Part shown: in pieces, positions 48,592 through 58,060 of the stretch
How positions within the stretch are numbered: the stretch's first letter is position 1
Layout: each line of letters opens with the position of its first letter
Assembly: GCF_019798055.1 (NCBI RefSeq)
Contig: NZ_JAHOPH010000018.1
Coordinates: 1-64,000, forward strand
Source of the DNA: Salsipaludibacter albus
Lineage (GTDB): Bacteria > Actinomycetota > Nitriliruptoria > Nitriliruptorales > Nitriliruptoraceae
DNA length: 64,000 nucleotides
Reading direction: 5' to 3'
The notes under the pieces: model-generated
What the model was told of the DNA's origin: nothing
The model's input: only the letters and a program-made list of their open reading frames with translations
Databases searched by the model: none
Program-made: the position numbers and the translations under genes

Positions 48592-48595
<4 letters not shown>
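47864..48595 (-). CDS. pgeF: Peptidoglycan editing factor PgeF
   Basis: A 243-residue YfiH/laccase-domain protein that removes wrongly incorporated serine-containing precursors in E. coli. Metal and nucleophile residues are in [11 protein letters not shown] (His), [10 protein letters not shown] (Cys), [15 protein letters not shown] (His) and CCYEVED. The short spacing and ATGA overlap with ftsZ place it in the division operon, consistent with a peptidoglycan role. Confidence 0.92.
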
Positions 48596-49692
<1,097 letters not shown>

Positions 49693-49828
49693 GGATTCGT
49701 GTCCTTTGCTGCGGCCGGGCAGTGGCCCGGCGCGGTGGCGGCCCTGGGGGACCGGTCGGATCGTCGTTGTGGGTCGGGTCAGGTCTGGTGGTGCCGGAGC
49801 CGGTGTCGCACGTGGCTTCCGGTTATGT

Positions 49829-49845
49829 CTAAACCTCTAGTTTAG
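49829..49845 (-). promoter_or_regulatory. AT-rich hairpin in the ftsZ leader
   Basis: CTAAAC-CTCTA-GTTTAG, a perfect 6-bp inverted repeat inside the AT-richest patch of the window (49825-49895). It would lie in the 5' leader of ftsZ mRNA if transcription starts near 49873. TCCAAAATTTGGA at 49855-49867 is a further near-palindrome. Confidence 0.4.
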
Positions 49846-49879
49846 GTCTAGTTCTCCAAAATTTGGAACATTCGACCAC

Positions 49880-49908
49880 AACCTAGAGTAGAGGTGAAGG
49901 TCCGTCAA
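49880..49908 (-). promoter_or_regulatory. ftsZ promoter
   Basis: On the minus strand, TTGACG (49903-49908) and TAGGTT (49880-49885) are separated by 17 bases. The -35 is a near-consensus match and the -10 fits TANNNT. It lies between ftsQ and ftsZ, so ftsZ can be transcribed apart from the upstream dcw genes. Confidence 0.65.
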
Positions 49909-49950
49909 GTCGAACCACTGGCACGTCGACCGGGGTCGGTGGGCCCCGGC

Positions 49951-50703
49951 CTACGGATCGACGACGGGAGCATCGGGTGCGCGGACGTCGATCCCCGACA
50001 CGGTGGCACCGTCCAGGTCCTCGAGGACGGCGGCCAGGGCCCGCGACTTGGCGTCGACGTCGGTGGCACGACCGAACTGCACCCGGGTGCCGTCGTCGAG
50101 CACCAACACCGCACGATCTGCCGCCTGGGCGTCGATCGACGCGACCAGGGAGGCGGTCGGCCCCGGGAGCGCGGCCGCGATGTCGATGGCGTTGCCCAGC
50201 GCGGGGTTGCGCAGCGCCCGCTCGCCCGGCGCGGGCAGCTCGCCCTCCTCGACGTCGATGACCACCAGGCCGTCGGCGTCCTTGGTGGCCATGACCATGC
50301 CCTCGTCGTCCACCAGGACGGCGGTGTCGTCGGTGCGGGCCACGATCGTCGCCACCCGCTCGGTGATCGCGATCTCGACGGTGACCGGGTCGACCCGGTC
50401 GATGTCCACCGATCGCACCCGCGGCAGCGCCGCCACGCGGTCCTCGGCGTCACCCAGCGGCAGGCGCAGCAGCGACGTCCCCAGCGGCAGGTCGGCGGCG
50501 GCGCGGACCTCGGCGTCGTCCAGCACCTGCGTGCCGACCACGCGAACCTCGGCCAGTTCGACCAGCGGTGACCGTTCCACGAGCAGCAAGGCGACCAGCA
50601 GTCCCACCAGGACCGCCACGACGACGGTGCGCTGCAGGCGTCGGCGACGCTGCTCCTCGCGGACGTCACGGCGTCGTTCGGCGATCCGCTCGTCGACCAT
50701 CAT
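49951..50703 (-). CDS. ftsQ: Cell division protein FtsQ
   Basis: A 250-residue bitopic membrane protein. A basic cytoplasmic N-terminus (to about 24), one membrane helix (TVVVAVLVGLLVALLLVE), a POTRA domain (about 46-115, LAEVRVVGTQVLDDAEVRAA) and the FtsQ domain follow. With FtsL and FtsB it links the Z-ring to FtsW-FtsI. The ATG at 50703 overlaps the murB stop as ATGA. Next downstream is a 258-bp gap holding the ftsZ promoter. Confidence 0.92.
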   Translation of the reverse strand: MMVDERIAERRRDVREEQRRRRLQRTVVVAVLVGLLVALLLVERSPLVELAEVRVVGTQVLDDAEVRAAADLPLGTSLLRLPLGDAEDRVAALPRVRSVDIDRVDPVTVEIAITERVATIVARTDDTAVLVDDEGMVMATKDADGLVVIDVEEGELPAPGERALRNPALGNAIDIAAALPGPTASLVASIDAQAADRAVLVLDDGTRVQFGRATDVDAKSRALAAVLEDLDGATVSGIDVRAPDAPVVDP

Positions 50704-51641
50704 CGCCACCACGCACCTGACGACGCCAACGAGCCGGCCACGCGCACCTCGGGCACCAGGTCCACCCCGGTCTCGTCCAGCACCAGGGCATGGACGCGAC
50801 GCACCAGTGCCACCACGTCGGCGGCGCGGGCATCCGGCCGGGTCACGATGAAGTTGGCGTGTCGCTCCGACACGCGCGCGCCACCCACGGCCAGGCCCTT
50901 GGCTCCGGCGGCCTCCACGAGGCGCCCGGCGGAGTCGTCGGGAGGGTTGGTGAAGACCGAACCGCAGTTGGGCTCGTTGAGCGGCTGGTGGGTGCGTCGC
51001 CAGGACCGGATGTCGGCCATCTCCGCGCGGACCACCTCCTGGTCGCCCGGCTCGAGTGCGAGGGTCGCGGCGACCACCACGGCATCCGCCGGCAGGTCGC
51101 TGTGGCGATAGGACAGCCCCAGGACCTGCGCGGGCCAGACTTCGCGGGCCCGACGACCCAGACGGTAAACCTCAACCTCTACAAGAGAGTCAGACATGTC
51201 GCGACCGTGTGCACCGGCGTTCATCCGCACCGCGCCACCGAGCGTTCCCGGCACGGCGGTCCCCCACGCGAAGCCGGCGAGGCCAGCCCGTGCGATGGTC
51301 CCGGCCAGGGCGGGCAGGGGCTCGGCCGCACCGGCGACCACCGTGCCGCCGTCGATGGACACGCCGCGAAACCCCCGCCCCAGCTGCAGGGCGATCCCGG
51401 GCCAGCCGTCGTCGCCGACCAGCAGGTTGGAGCCCCGACCGACCACCATCACGGGGACCTCGTGGGCCTGCGCGACGTCGGCGACCACGCCCAGGTCGCC
51501 GTCGTCCTCGGCCACCACCATCGCCCTGGCCGGTCCCCCGACCCGCAGGGTCGTCACCGTGGCCAGCTCGACACCGGGACGCGCCCGGTCACCGAGGCGA
51601 TCGGCCAGCGTGACCGCGACCGGGTCCGGCTCAGCGTCCAC
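50700..51641 (-). CDS. murB: UDP-N-acetylenolpyruvoylglucosamine reductase
   Basis: A 313-residue FAD-dependent reductase making UDP-MurNAc. Signatures: TTLRVGGPARAMV, VVGRGSNLLV, GFAWGTAVPGTLGGAVRMNA, SYRHSD, PNCGSVFTNP and SERHANFI. Catalytic Ser/Glu residues are in the CGSVF and C-terminal blocks. It is of the short (type IIa) form. GTG at 51641 overlaps murC by 11 bases. Confidence 0.95.
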   Translation of the reverse strand: MDAEPDPVAVTLADRLGDRARPGVELATVTTLRVGGPARAMVVAEDDGDLGVVADVAQAHEVPVMVVGRGSNLLVGDDGWPGIALQLGRGFRGVSIDGGTVVAGAAEPLPALAGTIARAGLAGFAWGTAVPGTLGGAVRMNAGAHGRDMSDSLVEVEVYRLGRRAREVWPAQVLGLSYRHSDLPADAVVVAATLALEPGDQEVVRAEMADIRSWRRTHQPLNEPNCGSVFTNPPDDSAGRLVEAAGAKGLAVGGARVSERHANFIVTRPDARAADVVALVRRVHALVLDETGVDLVPEVRVAGSLASSGAWWR

Positions 51642-53034
51642 CGTCGTCCCCGGCCAGTGCGTGGACCAGCGCCGCTCCGACCTGGCTGATGTCGCCCGCT
51701 CCCGTCACGAGCACGAGGTCGCCGCGCTCCGCCTCCGCGGCGAGCGCCGCCACCAGGGCGGTGAAGTGGGGCTGGAAGGTGACCCGGGCACCGGCCGCCT
51801 CGGCCGCCTCGGCCACGAGTCGACCGGACACGCCCGGCTCGGGGCTCTCGCCCGAGCCGTAGACGTCGGTCACCCACACCCGGTCGGCCGCCGCCGCGGC
51901 TCGGCCCAGCTCGGGGCCGAACTCGCGGGTGCGGCTGTAGCGATGGGGCTGCACCACGACCAGCACGCGTCCGTCGGTGTGGGCGCGCGCGGCCGCCAGG
52001 GTGGCGCGCAGCTCGGTCGGGTGGTGGGCGTAGTCGTCCACCACGGTGACCCCGGCCTCGCGACCGACCACCTGGAAGCGGCGGGCGGCCCCCTGGAAGA
52101 CGCCGAGGCCGGCGGCGACGGCGCGAGGATCGTGGCCCAGGTGGTGGGCGACCGCGATGGCCGCGGTCGCGTTCACGAGGTTGTGCTGGCCGGGCACGCC
52201 CAGTGCCAGCGTCGCCAGCTCGTGGTCGTCGTGGAGGACCGTTCCCGACCGTGGTCCCTCGGGGACCAACTGGTAGTCCGCGGAGGGGGCGATGCCATAG
52301 GTGGCCACCGGTCCGTCGACCCGGCCCGCCAGGGCCACTCCCCCGGGGTCGTCGACGCCGACCACCGCGAGACCGTCCGGCTCGCGCCGACCCAGGAAGG
52401 TCGCGAACACGTCGAGCACCTCGTCCTCGGAGGCGTAGGTGTCGGGGTGGTCGAGCTCGGCGTTGGTGACGATGGCGACGTGGGGTCGGAAGACCAGCAG
52501 CGACCGGTCCGACTCGTCGGCCTCGGCGACGAAGACCGGGTCGGTGCCCGCATGGGCGTTGGTGCCCGCCTCGTTGAGCTGGGCGCCGATCGAGAAGCTC
52601 GGGTCGACGCCGACGGCGTGCAGGCCGACGACCAGCATGGACGTCGTGGTGGTCTTGCCGTGGGTCCCGGCGACCAGCACGCGCCGGTCCCGAGCCATCA
52701 GCGCGTGCAGCAGGTCGGCCCGGTGGACGACCGGCACGGCGGCCGTCGTGGCCGCCACGACCTCCGGGTTGTCCTCGTGCACGGCCGACGAGACCACGAC
52801 GACGTCCTGGTCCGTGACGTTCGCCGCGTCGTGGCCGATCGTGACCGTGGCACCCATCGCGCGAAGTTCGTGCGTGCGCCGCGAGTCCTTGAGGTCCGAT
52901 CCGGTGACGACGTGCCCACGCTGGACGAGGATGCGGGCGAGGCCGGACATGCCGGCGCCACCGATGCCGACCAGGTGGACGGTCGTCGGGTCCTGCAGGT
53001 CCAGCTCGTGGGCCCCCGTGCGTGCCGTGGCCAT
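51631..53034 (-). CDS. murC: UDP-N-acetylmuramate--L-alanine ligase
   Basis: A 467-residue ATP-dependent ligase adding L-Ala. HLVGIGGAGMSGLA is the Rossmann UDP-binding loop, GTHGKTTTT (123-131) the P-loop, EADESD and DDYAHHPTELRATL the catalytic blocks. Its ATG overlaps the murG stop by one base. Confidence 0.96.
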   Translation of the reverse strand: MATARTGAHELDLQDPTTVHLVGIGGAGMSGLARILVQRGHVVTGSDLKDSRRTHELRAMGATVTIGHDAANVTDQDVVVVSSAVHEDNPEVVAATTAAVPVVHRADLLHALMARDRRVLVAGTHGKTTTTSMLVVGLHAVGVDPSFSIGAQLNEAGTNAHAGTDPVFVAEADESDRSLLVFRPHVAIVTNAELDHPDTYASEDEVLDVFATFLGRREPDGLAVVGVDDPGGVALAGRVDGPVATYGIAPSADYQLVPEGPRSGTVLHDDHELATLALGVPGQHNLVNATAAIAVAHHLGHDPRAVAAGLGVFQGAARRFQVVGREAGVTVVDDYAHHPTELRATLAAARAHTDGRVLVVVQPHRYSRTREFGPELGRAAAAADRVWVTDVYGSGESPEPGVSGRLVAEAAEAAGARVTFQPHFTALVAALAAEAERGDLVLVTGAGDISQVGAALVHALAGDDGGR

Positions 53035-54371
53035 CACCGGTCCTCGTCGTCGGGGTCGACCGGCGCGGCCGGGTCCACCCACGTGCGGTCGGTTTCCTCC
53101 CACGAGGCCACGACCGCGCCGATCTGCTCGGTGCGGGCGCGCGCGGACTCCGCGAACGCCTCGTCCAGCGCCGCCTCGTCGGTCTCGGGCAGCGCCAGGG
53201 CGTCGCCGGGTGCATCGGGCGGAGCAGAACCGGGGGTCAGGTCGACGCCCTCCACCATGCCACGCACCGCGTCGGCCACCAGTCGTGCTGCCTCCCGGCG
53301 ACCGAAGGCCCGTGCCCGCAGCGACGCCTCCGCCCGGGCGGCGGGGTCGCGGATCCAGGGCGCCAGGGCATCGACGATGGTGCGTCCCGACAGGCGCCCG
53401 TCCTCCACGGTGACGGCGGCGCCGGTCGCGGCAAGGGCACGTGCGTTCGCGGTCTGGTGGTCCCGGGTGGCGGCCGGGTAGGGCACCAGGACGGCCGGGA
53501 GGCCGAGCACCGTCAGCTCGGAGATGGAGGTGGCGCCCGCGCGACAGACGACGACGTCGGCGGCGGCGTAGGCCAGCGACATGTCGTCGATGAAGTCGAG
53601 GATGCGCACGGTCGGACCGTGGTCCGGGTCGTCGCCGACCTCGGCCCGCCACATGTCGATCGCCTCCTCGTGCAGCTTGGTCCCGGCGGCGTGGATGATC
53701 TGCAGGTCCAGGTCACCCCACTCGCGCGCCGACTTGGCGATCGCCCGGTTGATGCTGCGGGCGCCCTGGGAGCCACCGAAGACCAGCACGGTCGGCCGCT
53801 CCACGTCCAGCTCGAAGCGTCGACGGGCCGCCGCACGCACGGCGTCGCGGTCCAGGGCCAGGATCTCGTCGCGGACCGGGTTGCCGGTCACCAGGGTCCG
53901 CGACCGCTTGCCGAACCGGGCGGTGGACGACGGGAACGTCACGGCGATCCGGTCGGCCCAGCGCGCGGCGAACTGGTTGGCCAGGCCCGGGACGGCGTTC
54001 TGCTCGTGGAGCAGCAGCGGGATGTCGGCACGGCCGGCCGCCCACGAGACCGGGAAGGACACGTAGCCCCCGAAGGTGGCGGCGGCGACGACGTCGCGAC
54101 GCGCGAGGAGCTCGCTCACCTGTCCCCGCGAGCGACGCAGGCTCCCGGGCAGGCGCAGCAGTCCGACGGAGGGACGGCGGGGCAGGGGCAGTGCGTCGAC
54201 CAGGTGGAACTCGAACCCCGCCTCGGGCACCAGTCGTTCCTCGAGGCGTCCACGGGTCCCGACGAAGACGGGGTCCCAGTCACCGGTCGTGACCAGCTCG
54301 CGGGCCACGGCCAGCGCCGGGAACACGTGTCCGGCCGTTCCACCGCCTGCGAACAGGACGGTTCGGGTCAT
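53034..54371 (-). CDS. murG: UDP-GlcNAc:lipid I GlcNAc transferase (MurG)
   Basis: A 445-residue GT-B glycosyltransferase making lipid II on the inner face of the membrane. Markers: LFAGGGTAGHVFPALAVA, FGGYVSFPVSWAAGRADIPL, HEQNAVPGLANQFAA, VFGGSQGARSIN and GATSISELTVLGLPAVLVPY. About 75 residues after the normal end (rich in Asp, Glu, Ala, Pro) form an unusual acidic tail. ATG overlaps the ftsW stop. Confidence 0.95.
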   Translation of the reverse strand: MTRTVLFAGGGTAGHVFPALAVARELVTTGDWDPVFVGTRGRLEERLVPEAGFEFHLVDALPLPRRPSVGLLRLPGSLRRSRGQVSELLARRDVVAAATFGGYVSFPVSWAAGRADIPLLLHEQNAVPGLANQFAARWADRIAVTFPSSTARFGKRSRTLVTGNPVRDEILALDRDAVRAAARRRFELDVERPTVLVFGGSQGARSINRAIAKSAREWGDLDLQIIHAAGTKLHEEAIDMWRAEVGDDPDHGPTVRILDFIDDMSLAYAAADVVVCRAGATSISELTVLGLPAVLVPYPAATRDHQTANARALAATGAAVTVEDGRLSGRTIVDALAPWIRDPAARAEASLRARAFGRREAARLVADAVRGMVEGVDLTPGSAPPDAPGDALALPETDEAALDEAFAESARARTEQIGAVVASWEETDRTWVDPAAPVDPDDEDR

Positions 54372-55570
54372 TGCACTGCCTCGGGGTGGTCGACGTCACG
54401 GGCGATGGCCACCAGGATCCCCAGCGCGACGAGCGTGGACACCAGCGACGATCCACCGGCAGACACCAGCGGCAGGGTCATGCCGGTGATGGGCAGCACG
54501 CCGATGACGGTCGCGACGTTGATCATCGCCTGTCCGACGAGCCAGCCGGTGATGGTGAAGGCGACGGTACGAGAAAAGCCGGTGGCCTGCCGAGCGATCC
54601 GCAGCCCAACGACCAGGACCGCGGTGAACAGTCCCAGCACCACCAGGGCACCCACCAGGCCGAGCTCCTCGCCGATGATCGCGAAGACGAAGTCGGTCTC
54701 GGGGTTGGGCACGAAGTTCCACTTGCCCCGCGACGATCCGACGCCCACACCCGTCCATCCACCGTTGCCCAGCGCGTAGAGCGACTGCAGCAGCTGGAAC
54801 CCGGACTCGGTCGGGGCGGCCTCGGGGTTGAGCCACCCCTCGATGCGGGCCATCCGGTAGTCGGCGACGAGGGTCCCCACGATGCCCAGGGCCGCCATGG
54901 CGGCCCCGCCCAGGGCCATCAACCGCAACGGCAGGCCCTCGGCGAACAGCAGGATGGCGACGATCAGGCCGATCAACAGGGTCGTGCCCTGGTCGGGCTG
55001 GGCCATGACGAGCGTGGCCACGACGACCAGCAGCGGCACGGCGGGGACGAGCAGGTGGCGCAGGGGCAGCCGGCCGTCGGGTCGAGCGGTGCGCTTGCGT
55101 GCGGTGACGTCGGCCAGCCACAGCACGATCGCCAGCTTGACGAGCTCGGAGGGCTGGGCGACGAACCATCCGAAGCCCAGCCACCGGGTCGAGCCACCAC
55201 GCGTGATCCCCACGCCGGGGACGATGACCAGCAGCAGGCCCGCCAGGGACACGGCCAGCAGCACCCACGACACCGGGCGCCAGGTGCGGGGCTTGAGCCG
55301 GGCGACCACCACGAACGCGGGGATCCCGATGGCCGCCCAGACCAGCTGGCGACGCAGGATCCCGAACGGGTCACCGGACTCGGCCGCGTCGACCACGGAT
55401 GCCGAGAAGCTCATGACGAGGCCGATGAGCAACAGCAGTCCGGTGACCACGACCAGCAGGGTCGCGTCGTTGGTCCAGCCGGACACCGACTGGGCCCGGA
55501 GGCGATCCATGACCCGCTCCCCCAGCGTGCGCCGTGGCGCCAGCAGGTCCTGGTGGGTGGTGGAGCTCAC
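54368..55570 (-). CDS. ftsW: Peptidoglycan glycosyltransferase FtsW
   Basis: A 400-residue SEDS-family membrane polymerase that makes septal glycan from lipid II with FtsI. About ten membrane helices; conserved blocks GITRGGSTRWLGFG, QPSELVKLAIVLWLAD, MAQPDQGTTLLIG, FVFAIIGEELGLVGAL and GMTLPLVSAGGSSLV are present. It directly follows mraY with only 37 bases between; murD, which normally lies between them, is absent. GTG at 55570 has an AGG about ten bases upstream. Confidence 0.95.
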   Translation of the reverse strand: MSSTTHQDLLAPRRTLGERVMDRLRAQSVSGWTNDATLLVVVTGLLLLIGLVMSFSASVVDAAESGDPFGILRRQLVWAAIGIPAFVVVARLKPRTWRPVSWVLLAVSLAGLLLVIVPGVGITRGGSTRWLGFGWFVAQPSELVKLAIVLWLADVTARKRTARPDGRLPLRHLLVPAVPLLVVVATLVMAQPDQGTTLLIGLIVAILLFAEGLPLRLMALGGAAMAALGIVGTLVADYRMARIEGWLNPEAAPTESGFQLLQSLYALGNGGWTGVGVGSSRGKWNFVPNPETDFVFAIIGEELGLVGALVVLGLFTAVLVVGLRIARQATGFSRTVAFTITGWLVGQAMINVATVIGVLPITGMTLPLVSAGGSSLVSTLVALGILVAIARDVDHPEAVQ

Positions 55571-55607
55571 GTTCGTGCCTGTCGTCGAGTGGGCGTCGAG
55601 GCGGCCG

Positions 55608-56651
55608 TCACTGGCTGATCCCGATCCGGCTGAACCACTCGGCGTAGAACATGCCGAGTGCCGTCGTGATGCCCAGGCCGGAGATGATCCAGAACCGGAC
55701 CACCACGGTGGTCTCGGCCCAGCCCAGGAGCTCGAAGTGGTGGTGGATGGGCGCCATGCGCAGGATCCGCCGTCCGAAGACCCGGTAGGCCACCACCTGG
55801 GCCACGACCGACGCGGTCTCCAGCACGTACAGGCCACCGAGCACGACCAGCAACAACTGGGTGCCGGTCACGATCGCCATGGCGGAGAACAGGCCCCCCA
55901 GTGCCAGCGACCCGGTGTCGCCCATGAAGATCTTGGCGGGCGGGGCGTTGAACCACAGGAACCCGGCACAGGCCGCCAGCCCGGCCGCCGAGATGACGGC
56001 GACGTCGAGGGCGGCCCCGGGCTCGATGAACGTGTACGACGCCCCGTTGCGGAACATCCAGAAGCCGATGAGGGTGAAGCCGCCGAAGGTCAGCGTGGCC
56101 GACCCTGCCGCCAGGCCGTCGAGGCCGTCGGTGAGGTTCACGGCGTTGGAGAAGCCCGAGATCATCAGGAACACCCAGATCCCGAACACCCACACGGGCA
56201 CGTCGAAGGACACCGAGCCCACCAGCGAGATCGACTGCGGCACGCCCGCCCACGACGGACCCAACAGCGTCACCGCGAGCGCGATGAGCGCCTGCCCGAG
56301 GAACTTCGCGGTCTTGGACAGGCCCAGGCTGCGTCGCAGGCGGACCTTGATGAAGTCGTCGGTGAACCCGACGGCGGCCATGCCCACGAAGACCAGCAGC
56401 ATCAGCACACCGGCGCGACTGACCTCCGCCTCGGTGAGATGGGCCACGAGGAAGGCGATGACGGCGGCCGAGACGAAGGCCGTCCCACCCATCGTCGGGG
56501 TGCCCTCCTTGGCCTCGTGCGGCGGGTTGAAGTCCTCGTCCACCCGCACCGACTGGCCGAAGCCCTTCCGGCGGAAGTAGCGGATGACCATCGGCGTGCC
56601 GAACAGGGACAGCAGCATGGCGATGGCGCCGGCGATCAGCACCGCGATCAT
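55608..56651 (-). CDS. mraY: Phospho-N-acetylmuramoyl-pentapeptide transferase
   Basis: A 347-residue polytopic membrane enzyme making lipid I. Motifs: KEGTPTMGGTAF, GFTDDFIKV (metal-binding Asp), NAVNLTDGLDGLAAGSA, FMGDTGSLALGG and MAPIHHHFELLGW. ATG overlaps the murF stop by four bases. Confidence 0.97.
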   Translation of the reverse strand: MIAVLIAGAIAMLLSLFGTPMVIRYFRRKGFGQSVRVDEDFNPPHEAKEGTPTMGGTAFVSAAVIAFLVAHLTEAEVSRAGVLMLLVFVGMAAVGFTDDFIKVRLRRSLGLSKTAKFLGQALIALAVTLLGPSWAGVPQSISLVGSVSFDVPVWVFGIWVFLMISGFSNAVNLTDGLDGLAAGSATLTFGGFTLIGFWMFRNGASYTFIEPGAALDVAVISAAGLAACAGFLWFNAPPAKIFMGDTGSLALGGLFSAMAIVTGTQLLLVVLGGLYVLETASVVAQVVAYRVFGRRILRMAPIHHHFELLGWAETTVVVRFWIISGLGITTALGMFYAEWFSRIGISQ

Positions 56652-58060
56652 CGTGGGGCCTCCCCGCTCGGCGGGTCGTCGGGGTGCGGTGGTCCGGCCA
56701 CGAGGTCGACCAGGCGTTCCAGTCCGGCCACGCGTGAGCCCTTGACGAGCACCGCGTCACCGTGGGGCACGGCGCCCAGCGCCGCCACCGCAGCCTCGGC
56801 GTCGTCGACCACGGACACGGCGAGGTCGGGGCGGGCCGCTCGGGCACCGGCCGCCAGGCCGGCGGCGGCGGCACCCACGACGACCAGGGCGTCGACCACC
56901 TCGGCGGCGGCCGCTCCCACCCTGCGGTGGTCGGCCTCGTGGGTCGGGCCGATCTCCGCCATCACGCCCAGCACGGCGTGGCGCCGACCCGTCACCTGGA
57001 GGTCGGCGAGCGCACCCAGCGCCGCCAGCACGGACGTGGGGTTGGCGTTGTAGGAGTCGTCCACCAGGATGCCACCGTCCGCCGTCGCCAGCACGCGGCC
57101 CCGGCCACCGGACACGGTCGCACGTGACAGCGCCGCCGCACCGGCGACCGGGTCGACCCCGACGGCGTCGGCCGCGGCCAGGGCCAGCAGGGCGTTGAGG
57201 ACGTGGTGGCGACCGGTGATCGGCAGTGCGACGGGGGCGGACCGTCCGCCCGGCAGCACGGCCGTGAACGACGCGCGGGAGGCGCCGTCGAGCCGGACGT
57301 CGCGGGCGTGGACGTCGGCCGCGGCGTCGTCGACCGAGACCCGCACGACCCGACCGGGCGCATCGTGCGCCATCGCCGCGACGCGGTGGTCGTCGACGTT
57401 GAGGACGGCCACGCCGTCGGGCCCCAGTGAGGCGACCAGCTCGGCCTTGGCCACGGCCACCTCGTCCAGGCTGCCGAACAGCTCGAGGTGGGCACCGGCC
57501 ACGATCGTGACCACCGCCACGTCCGGCCGCAGCCACGTCGCCAGCTCGGCGATGTGGCCACGACCCCGTGCCCCGAGCTCGGCGACCAGCACCGCGGTGT
57601 CGGCGTCCGTGCGACAGACGGTGAGGGGCACCCCCACCTCGTTGTTGTACGAGCCCCGGGCGGCGACCGTGGGCACGGTGGCGCCGGCGACCGTCGCCAG
57701 CAGGTCCTTGGTGGTGGTCTTGCCCACCGAGCCGGTGATGCCCACGACGGTCGCCACCGCACGACCACGGACGGCCCGGGCGATGGCCACCAGCGCGGCC
57801 TGCACGTCGTCGACCACCAGGGTGGGCACGTCGAGCGGGCGGGTCGCCACCGTGGCGACCGCGCCGGCCTCGACCGCCGCCGGCGCGAAGTCGGCGCCGT
57901 CCAACTGCTCGCCACGCCGAGCCAGGTAGAGGGCACCAGGCCCGGCCTCCCGGGAATCGGTGACGACGGCGGTCACGGCCACGGTGTCGTGGTCGTCGGG
58001 CCACGACGCCCGCCGCGCCCCCAGGAGGGTCGCCACCTCGGCGAGCGTGAACGCGATCAC
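56648..58060 (-). CDS. murF: UDP-MurNAc-tripeptide--D-Ala-D-Ala ligase
   Basis: A 470-residue ligase adding the D-Ala-D-Ala dipeptide. P-loop GITGSVGKTTTKD (107-119), ARGSYNNEVGVPL, ELGARGRGHIAEL, VDDSYNANP and LGVMAEIGP are typical. It overlaps murE by four bases and mraY by four. Confidence 0.96.
   Translation of the reverse strand: MIAFTLAEVATLLGARRASWPDDHDTVAVTAVVTDSREAGPGALYLARRGEQLDGADFAPAAVEAGAVATVATRPLDVPTLVVDDVQAALVAIARAVRGRAVATVVGITGSVGKTTTKDLLATVAGATVPTVAARGSYNNEVGVPLTVCRTDADTAVLVAELGARGRGHIAELATWLRPDVAVVTIVAGAHLELFGSLDEVAVAKAELVASLGPDGVAVLNVDDHRVAAMAHDAPGRVVRVSVDDAAADVHARDVRLDGASRASFTAVLPGGRSAPVALPITGRHHVLNALLALAAADAVGVDPVAGAAALSRATVSGGRGRVLATADGGILVDDSYNANPTSVLAALGALADLQVTGRRHAVLGVMAEIGPTHEADHRRVGAAAAEVVDALVVVGAAAAGLAAGARAARPDLAVSVVDDAEAAVAALGAVPHGDAVLVKGSRVAGLERLVDLVAGPPHPDDPPSGEAPR

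Follow-up and report, generated by a model that had tools for sequence, protein, structure and literature searches.

The empty murD slot in the dcw cluster of Salsipaludibacter albus and a candidate MurD2-MurL route in the Nitriliruptoria

The dcw cluster and its mraY-ftsW junction

The DNA investigated here, hereafter referred to as the window, is a stretch of 64,000 nucleotides from the genome of Salsipaludibacter albus (contig NZ_JAHOPH010000018.1, positions 1 to 64,000). Its minus strand carries, in order, mraZ, rsmH, an ftsL-like gene, ftsI, murE, murF, mraY, ftsW, murG, murC, murB, ftsQ, and ftsZ, and beyond ftsZ lie pgeF-, yggS-, sepF-, and yggT-like genes on the same strand. The names of murF, mraY, ftsW, and murC are backed by hidden Markov models, and the remainder were assigned by reading of the sequence. 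Between ftsQ and ftsZ (48592-50712) there is no ftsA, an arrangement that is usual for actinobacteria. The features surrounding the murD position are listed below.

56648..58060, minus strand: murF (TIGR01143, 353 bits; cut-off, 289)
55608..56651, minus strand: mraY (TIGR00445, 291 bits; cut-off, 192), with its stop codon at 55608-55610
55571..55607, no strand: the empty murD slot, a spacer of 37 bases between mraY and ftsW
54368..55570, minus strand: ftsW (TIGR02614, 357 bits; cut-off, 338), with a GTG start at 55570
53034..54371, minus strand: murG, a MurG-like open reading frame read from the sequence alone
51631..53037, minus strand: murC (TIGR01082, 458 bits; cut-off, 335), with an approximate start codon

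As was recognized in the initial annotation, murD is absent from a dcw order that is otherwise intact. The 37 bases separating mraY from ftsW are free of genes and too short for murD. That annotation had also allowed for an assembly gap. Both mraY and ftsW are located on one gap-free contig (C10), however, and the window contains no N; the junction is thus not a gap in the assembly, and, as described below, it recurs in relatives.

The Mur ligases of the genome and the murL-murD2 pair

The genome of S. albus is a 4.25-Mb draft in 79 contigs that is 97.3% complete and 0.87% contaminated, and approximately 3% of it may be missing. A search of the genome for the Mur-ligase middle domain revealed six sites. 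Three of these lie in the window (MurE, MurF, and MurC), and contigs C79, C78, and C34 each contribute one more. The proteins on C78 and C34 were considered as the missing ligase and rejected, the first having been identified as the folate enzyme FolC and the second as PgsB, a poly-gamma-glutamate enzyme. The protein on C79 is a MurD-type ligase, which aligns with the Escherichia coli MurD with an E-value of 7e-41. Its coordinates are as follows.

contig C79, 46369-47736, minus strand: candidate murD2 ligase (TIGR01087, the murD model, 310 bits; cut-off, 212)

The gene that precedes it encodes a homologue of MurL (NF041275, E-value of 1.5e-125, 419 bits over 394 residues), with a score that lies below the cut-off of 700 bits for this NCBIfam model, which is named for the Xanthomonadales. 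The start codon of murD2 is positioned within the stop of murL such that the two genes overlap by the four base pairs GTGA. Long open frames near murL had hinted at a MurL-MurD2 fusion, which was rejected because the genes are in different frames.

In the 97.3% complete genome, no match to the glutamate racemase MurI (TIGR00067) was observed at E ≤ 1. The genome encodes two class IV aminotransferases, a branched-chain enzyme (TIGR01123, 354 bits) and a protein (C1:53555-54238) that reaches no cut-off and scores weakly as a D-amino-acid transaminase (103 bits versus a cut-off of 277). Some supply of free D-Glu from a class IV aminotransferase is conceivable. Contig C34 harbors a pgsB-pgsC-pgsA-like poly-gamma-glutamate set (L017:7455-10536; PgsB, TIGR04012, 393 bits), which, in a genome with no glutamate racemase, suggests an all-L-glutamate polymer.

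Residues that govern the chirality of the glutamate accepted by such ligases have been reported previously. The E197D and R358K substitutions in MurD2 from Xanthomonas oryzae alter chirality, with the double mutant being a D-Glu enzyme, and the K319T variant of E. coli MurD accepts some L-Glu (PMC8788868). On the basis of an alignment to E. coli MurD, Asp197, Ile327, and Arg355 of the C79 ligase occupy the positions of D182, K319, and K348, respectively. Arg355 matches the R358 determinant of the X. oryzae enzyme (K348 in E. coli). Glu197 is not matched, the corresponding residue being Asp197 as in canonical MurD, and this is the only one of the residues compared to deviate from Xanthomonas MurD2. 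The three positions are occupied by Asp, Ile or Leu, and Arg in all 13 of the class MurD2s examined, by Asp, Lys, and Lys in the canonical MurDs of the class (30 of 30), and by Glu, Ile, and Arg in most proteobacterial MurD2s. Given that Asp is found at the E197 position both in the class MurD2s and in some other MurL-paired ligases, Glu197 does not define MurL-paired ligases generally. From these alignments, the arginine and the loss of Lys319 track MurL pairing, whereas Glu197 does not. In two MurL-paired ligases (L101 and L187), a cysteine is found at the E. coli D182 position, beside a conserved histidine.

The arrangement in S. albus is thus similar to the Xanthomonas MurD2-MurL system in having an adjacent pair, no MurI, an arginine at the R358 position, and a residue other than lysine at the E. 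coli K319 position. It differs in the aspartate at the E197 position and in belonging to a different phylum. With canonical MurD (that of E. coli, PDB 2jff, and the dcw-encoded enzymes of the class) the C79 ligase shares its family and a score above the TIGR01087 cut-off. Unlike canonical MurD, it is encoded outside of the dcw cluster and beside murL, it has isoleucine for Lys319 and arginine for Lys348, and it falls into a separate clade.

These features bear on the suggestion that murD has merely been relocated, with the C79 protein being an ordinary D-Glu ligase fed by an unrecognized racemase or D-amino-acid transaminase and the MurL homologue being otherwise employed. The TIGR01087 score, the canonical aspartate, and the presence of a class IV aminotransferase whose specificity is uncertain would be in keeping with such a scheme. 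The 4-bp overlap with murL and the lysine-to-isoleucine and lysine-to-arginine changes at the two other chirality-affecting positions argue against it, as do the distribution of MurI and the ligase tree considered in the following section.

Distribution and origin of the pair

MurL was found in 15 of the 66 genomes examined from the Nitriliruptoria, a class that includes the Euzebyales. MurI (E < 1e-10) was detected in none of these 15 genomes versus 49 of the 51 others, and these values, as with all class counts given here, refer to related genomes rather than to independent events. Of the two MurI-less exceptions, one (G055, 72% complete) has congeners with MurL and an empty mraY-ftsW junction, and the other (G059, 88% complete) still has murD in its slot. 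Among the class MurL genomes in which the mraY locus could be read, S. albus included, mraY is followed directly by ftsW in 14 of 14, one of them being a genome in a single contig (G047); the same is observed in G055. A MurD is encoded between mraY and ftsW in all 14 of the other class genomes tested, G055 apart. An identical junction in 14 of 14 genomes is not due to chance. With respect to whether relatives share the loss, a point raised in the initial annotation, the loss of murD from the slot is common to exactly the carriers of MurL.

One of these carriers, G024 (L021 and L195), belongs to the genus of Euzebya pacifica (g33) and thus to a family other than that of S. albus. It contains MurL and displays the empty junction, and three other species of the genus (G022, G023, and G025) have retained both MurI and the dcw murD. 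Since G024 lies in a separate family and its congeners possess murD and murI, the swap has occurred at least twice. The species of this genus differ in their route to peptidoglycan, such that the replacement can be studied by comparison and by experiment.

When genomes were drawn from the phylum, MurL was found in 27 of 396. MurI (E < 1e-10) is absent from the MurL genomes outside of the class (15 of 15), and in 13 of the 14 with a readable mraY, that gene is followed by ftsW. In a genome from another actinobacterial family (G137, L213) the order is mraY-murL-murD2-ftsW. Here the pair sits exactly inside the murD slot and is a direct in-place replacement of murD. The Nitriliruptoria are not included in the published list of MurL carriers (PMC8788868), and in the limited set of literature searched no report of MurL in this class was found.

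A phylogenetic tree was calculated for 74 ligases comprising the MurL-paired enzymes and the MurDs of the class. A branch with 100/100 support splits the class's own MurDs from all of the MurL-paired ligases. The MurD2s from the family of S. albus (f1) form a single clade (100/99), within which the C79 ligase is paired at 100/100 with the MurD2 of G060, a further genome from the S. albus genus. The G024 MurD2 clusters with a ligase that derives from a Mycobacterium bin (99/95). As judged from these sequences, the murL-murD2 pair was probably acquired horizontally, and at least twice. Within f1, a tree based on MraY and MurF calls for four changes of label, at least two of which are forced by well-supported branches, versus the single clade formed by the MurD2s of this family, such that gain, loss, and within-family transfer are each conceivable.

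The strict mutual exclusion of MurL and MurI in 15 genomes of the class and 15 from elsewhere in the phylum, together with the clustering of the C79 ligase with the MurD2s and apart from the class MurDs, renders a mere relocation of murD improbable. The initial annotation had proposed that murD either had moved or had been supplanted by another ligase, for example one of a MurL-type pathway. The second proposal is borne out by the MurD-family ligase that overlaps murL; the first, in the form of a simple move, does not agree with the position of this ligase amongst foreign MurD2s.

Less probable still is an origin in place, whereby the family's own murD changed specificity and subsequently moved beside murL. 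The f1 MurD2s do form a clade of their own, as would suit such a history. Nesting amongst the resident enzymes would be expected, however, and the class MurDs, 14 of them from f1, all lie on one side of the 100/100 branch that excludes every MurD2; moreover, the G024 enzyme groups with the Mycobacterium-bin sequence. Given the position of the MurD2s in the tree, horizontal arrival provides a better fit than a change in specificity of a resident MurD. Finally, an artefact in which the true murD was dropped from the draft of 79 contigs, or in which the murL-murD2 contig represents contamination, is scarcely credible given the contiguity of mraY and ftsW, the same junction in 13 other class MurL genomes including that in one contig, and the pairing of the G060 MurD2 with the C79 ligase.

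It is thus very probable that the dcw murD was lost because the cell employs a MurD2-MurL route, the pair having been gained by horizontal transfer and murD and murI, which were then redundant, having been lost. By analogy with the enzymes from Xanthomonas, Micromonospora, and Salinispora, MurC would provide UDP-MurNAc-L-Ala, to which the C79 MurD2 would ligate L-Glu. MurL would then convert the added L-Glu to the D-configuration, and the MurE and MurF encoded in the window would take over as usual. Such a route would require neither free D-Glu nor MurI, and we infer that the arrival of the pair preceded the loss of both murD and murI. An essential step in peptidoglycan biosynthesis has been swapped more than once inside a single small class, both murD and murI being missing wherever the pair is present, and the empty mraY-ftsW junction provides a simple genomic marker of the L-Glu pathway.

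The predicted fold of MurL

According to reviews, MurL lacks any known conserved domain; adenylation of a carboxylate has been proposed for it, and its mechanism has been described as unclear (PMC8788868, PMC5808125). An AlphaFold2 model of the S. albus MurL, calculated with a 49-sequence alignment, is a confident one, with a pLDDT of 93 and a pTM of 0.92. A Foldseek search of the PDB with this model gave no match at E ≤ 0.001. When the Foldseek candidates were compared with VIA-align, the top structure was that of QatC (Z-score of 19.8, rmsd of 3.7, 310 residues, spanning model residues 26-422 and hence also the N-terminal part), followed by QueC (Z-score of 14.0, rmsd of 3.4, 198 residues) and Cap9 (Z-score of 13.3, rmsd of 2.3, 165 residues). 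Other PP-loop enzymes superimposed with Z-scores of ∼10. The predicted structure displays the fold of the QueC/QatC family of PP-loop enzymes (PMC13329287, PMC13279940).

Common to the 49 MurLs is a GGGKDS loop, three residues of which are nearly invariant or better, and all 49 contain four invariant cysteines in the pattern C324-x13-C338-x2-C341-x2-C344. QueC is characterized by an SGGxDS loop and a C(x)8CxxCxxC zinc motif (PMC13329287). At the level of sequence, the MurL loop and cysteine pattern appear to be variants of both QueC motifs, the differences being a glycine in place of the first serine and a cysteine spacing of x13 versus x8.

Sequence comparisons are less telling. The S. albus MurL does not match the Pfam family for QueC (PF06508), and six of the 49 MurLs match it below the cut-off, the best E-value being 0.0044; QueC is nevertheless the Pfam family matched by the most MurL members. 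Because the cut-off is missed, MurL is not classed as a member of the QueC family but only as sharing its fold. In an hhalign comparison of MurL with one QueC, the P-loop alone was aligned, with a probability of 3.7%, and the link to QueC is thus drawn from the structural comparison and the motifs. A sequence search of the PDB with MurL revealed no solved relative, and PADLOC gave no match. MurL is not mentioned together with QueC or QatC in the literature searched.

QueC uses ATP to act on a carboxylate, and hence the fold supports the adenylation proposal without proving it; a QueC/QatC fold would explain the use of ATP by MurL. Note that the known reactions of the QueC family belong to 7-deazaguanine chemistry, as opposed to the epimerization ascribed to MurL. 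On balance, we favor a model in which MurL is a divergent PP-loop adenylating enzyme of the QueC/QatC type that has turned peptide epimerase and has even its N-terminal extension in common with QatC, an anti-phage protein, and in which its partner ligase in the Nitriliruptoria is specific for L-Glu by virtue of Asp-Ile-Arg rather than the Glu-Arg of Xanthomonas. The pathway itself is already known. What is new is its occurrence in this class, the clean pattern of murD and murI loss, the variant residue in the ligase, and the QueC/QatC fold of the MurL model, which leads to a concrete hypothesis for carboxylate adenylation together with candidate residues. A weak match to DUF6395, a Pfam family of unknown function, was observed for four of the 49 MurLs (best E-value of 0.083), and this family may be a relative of MurL.
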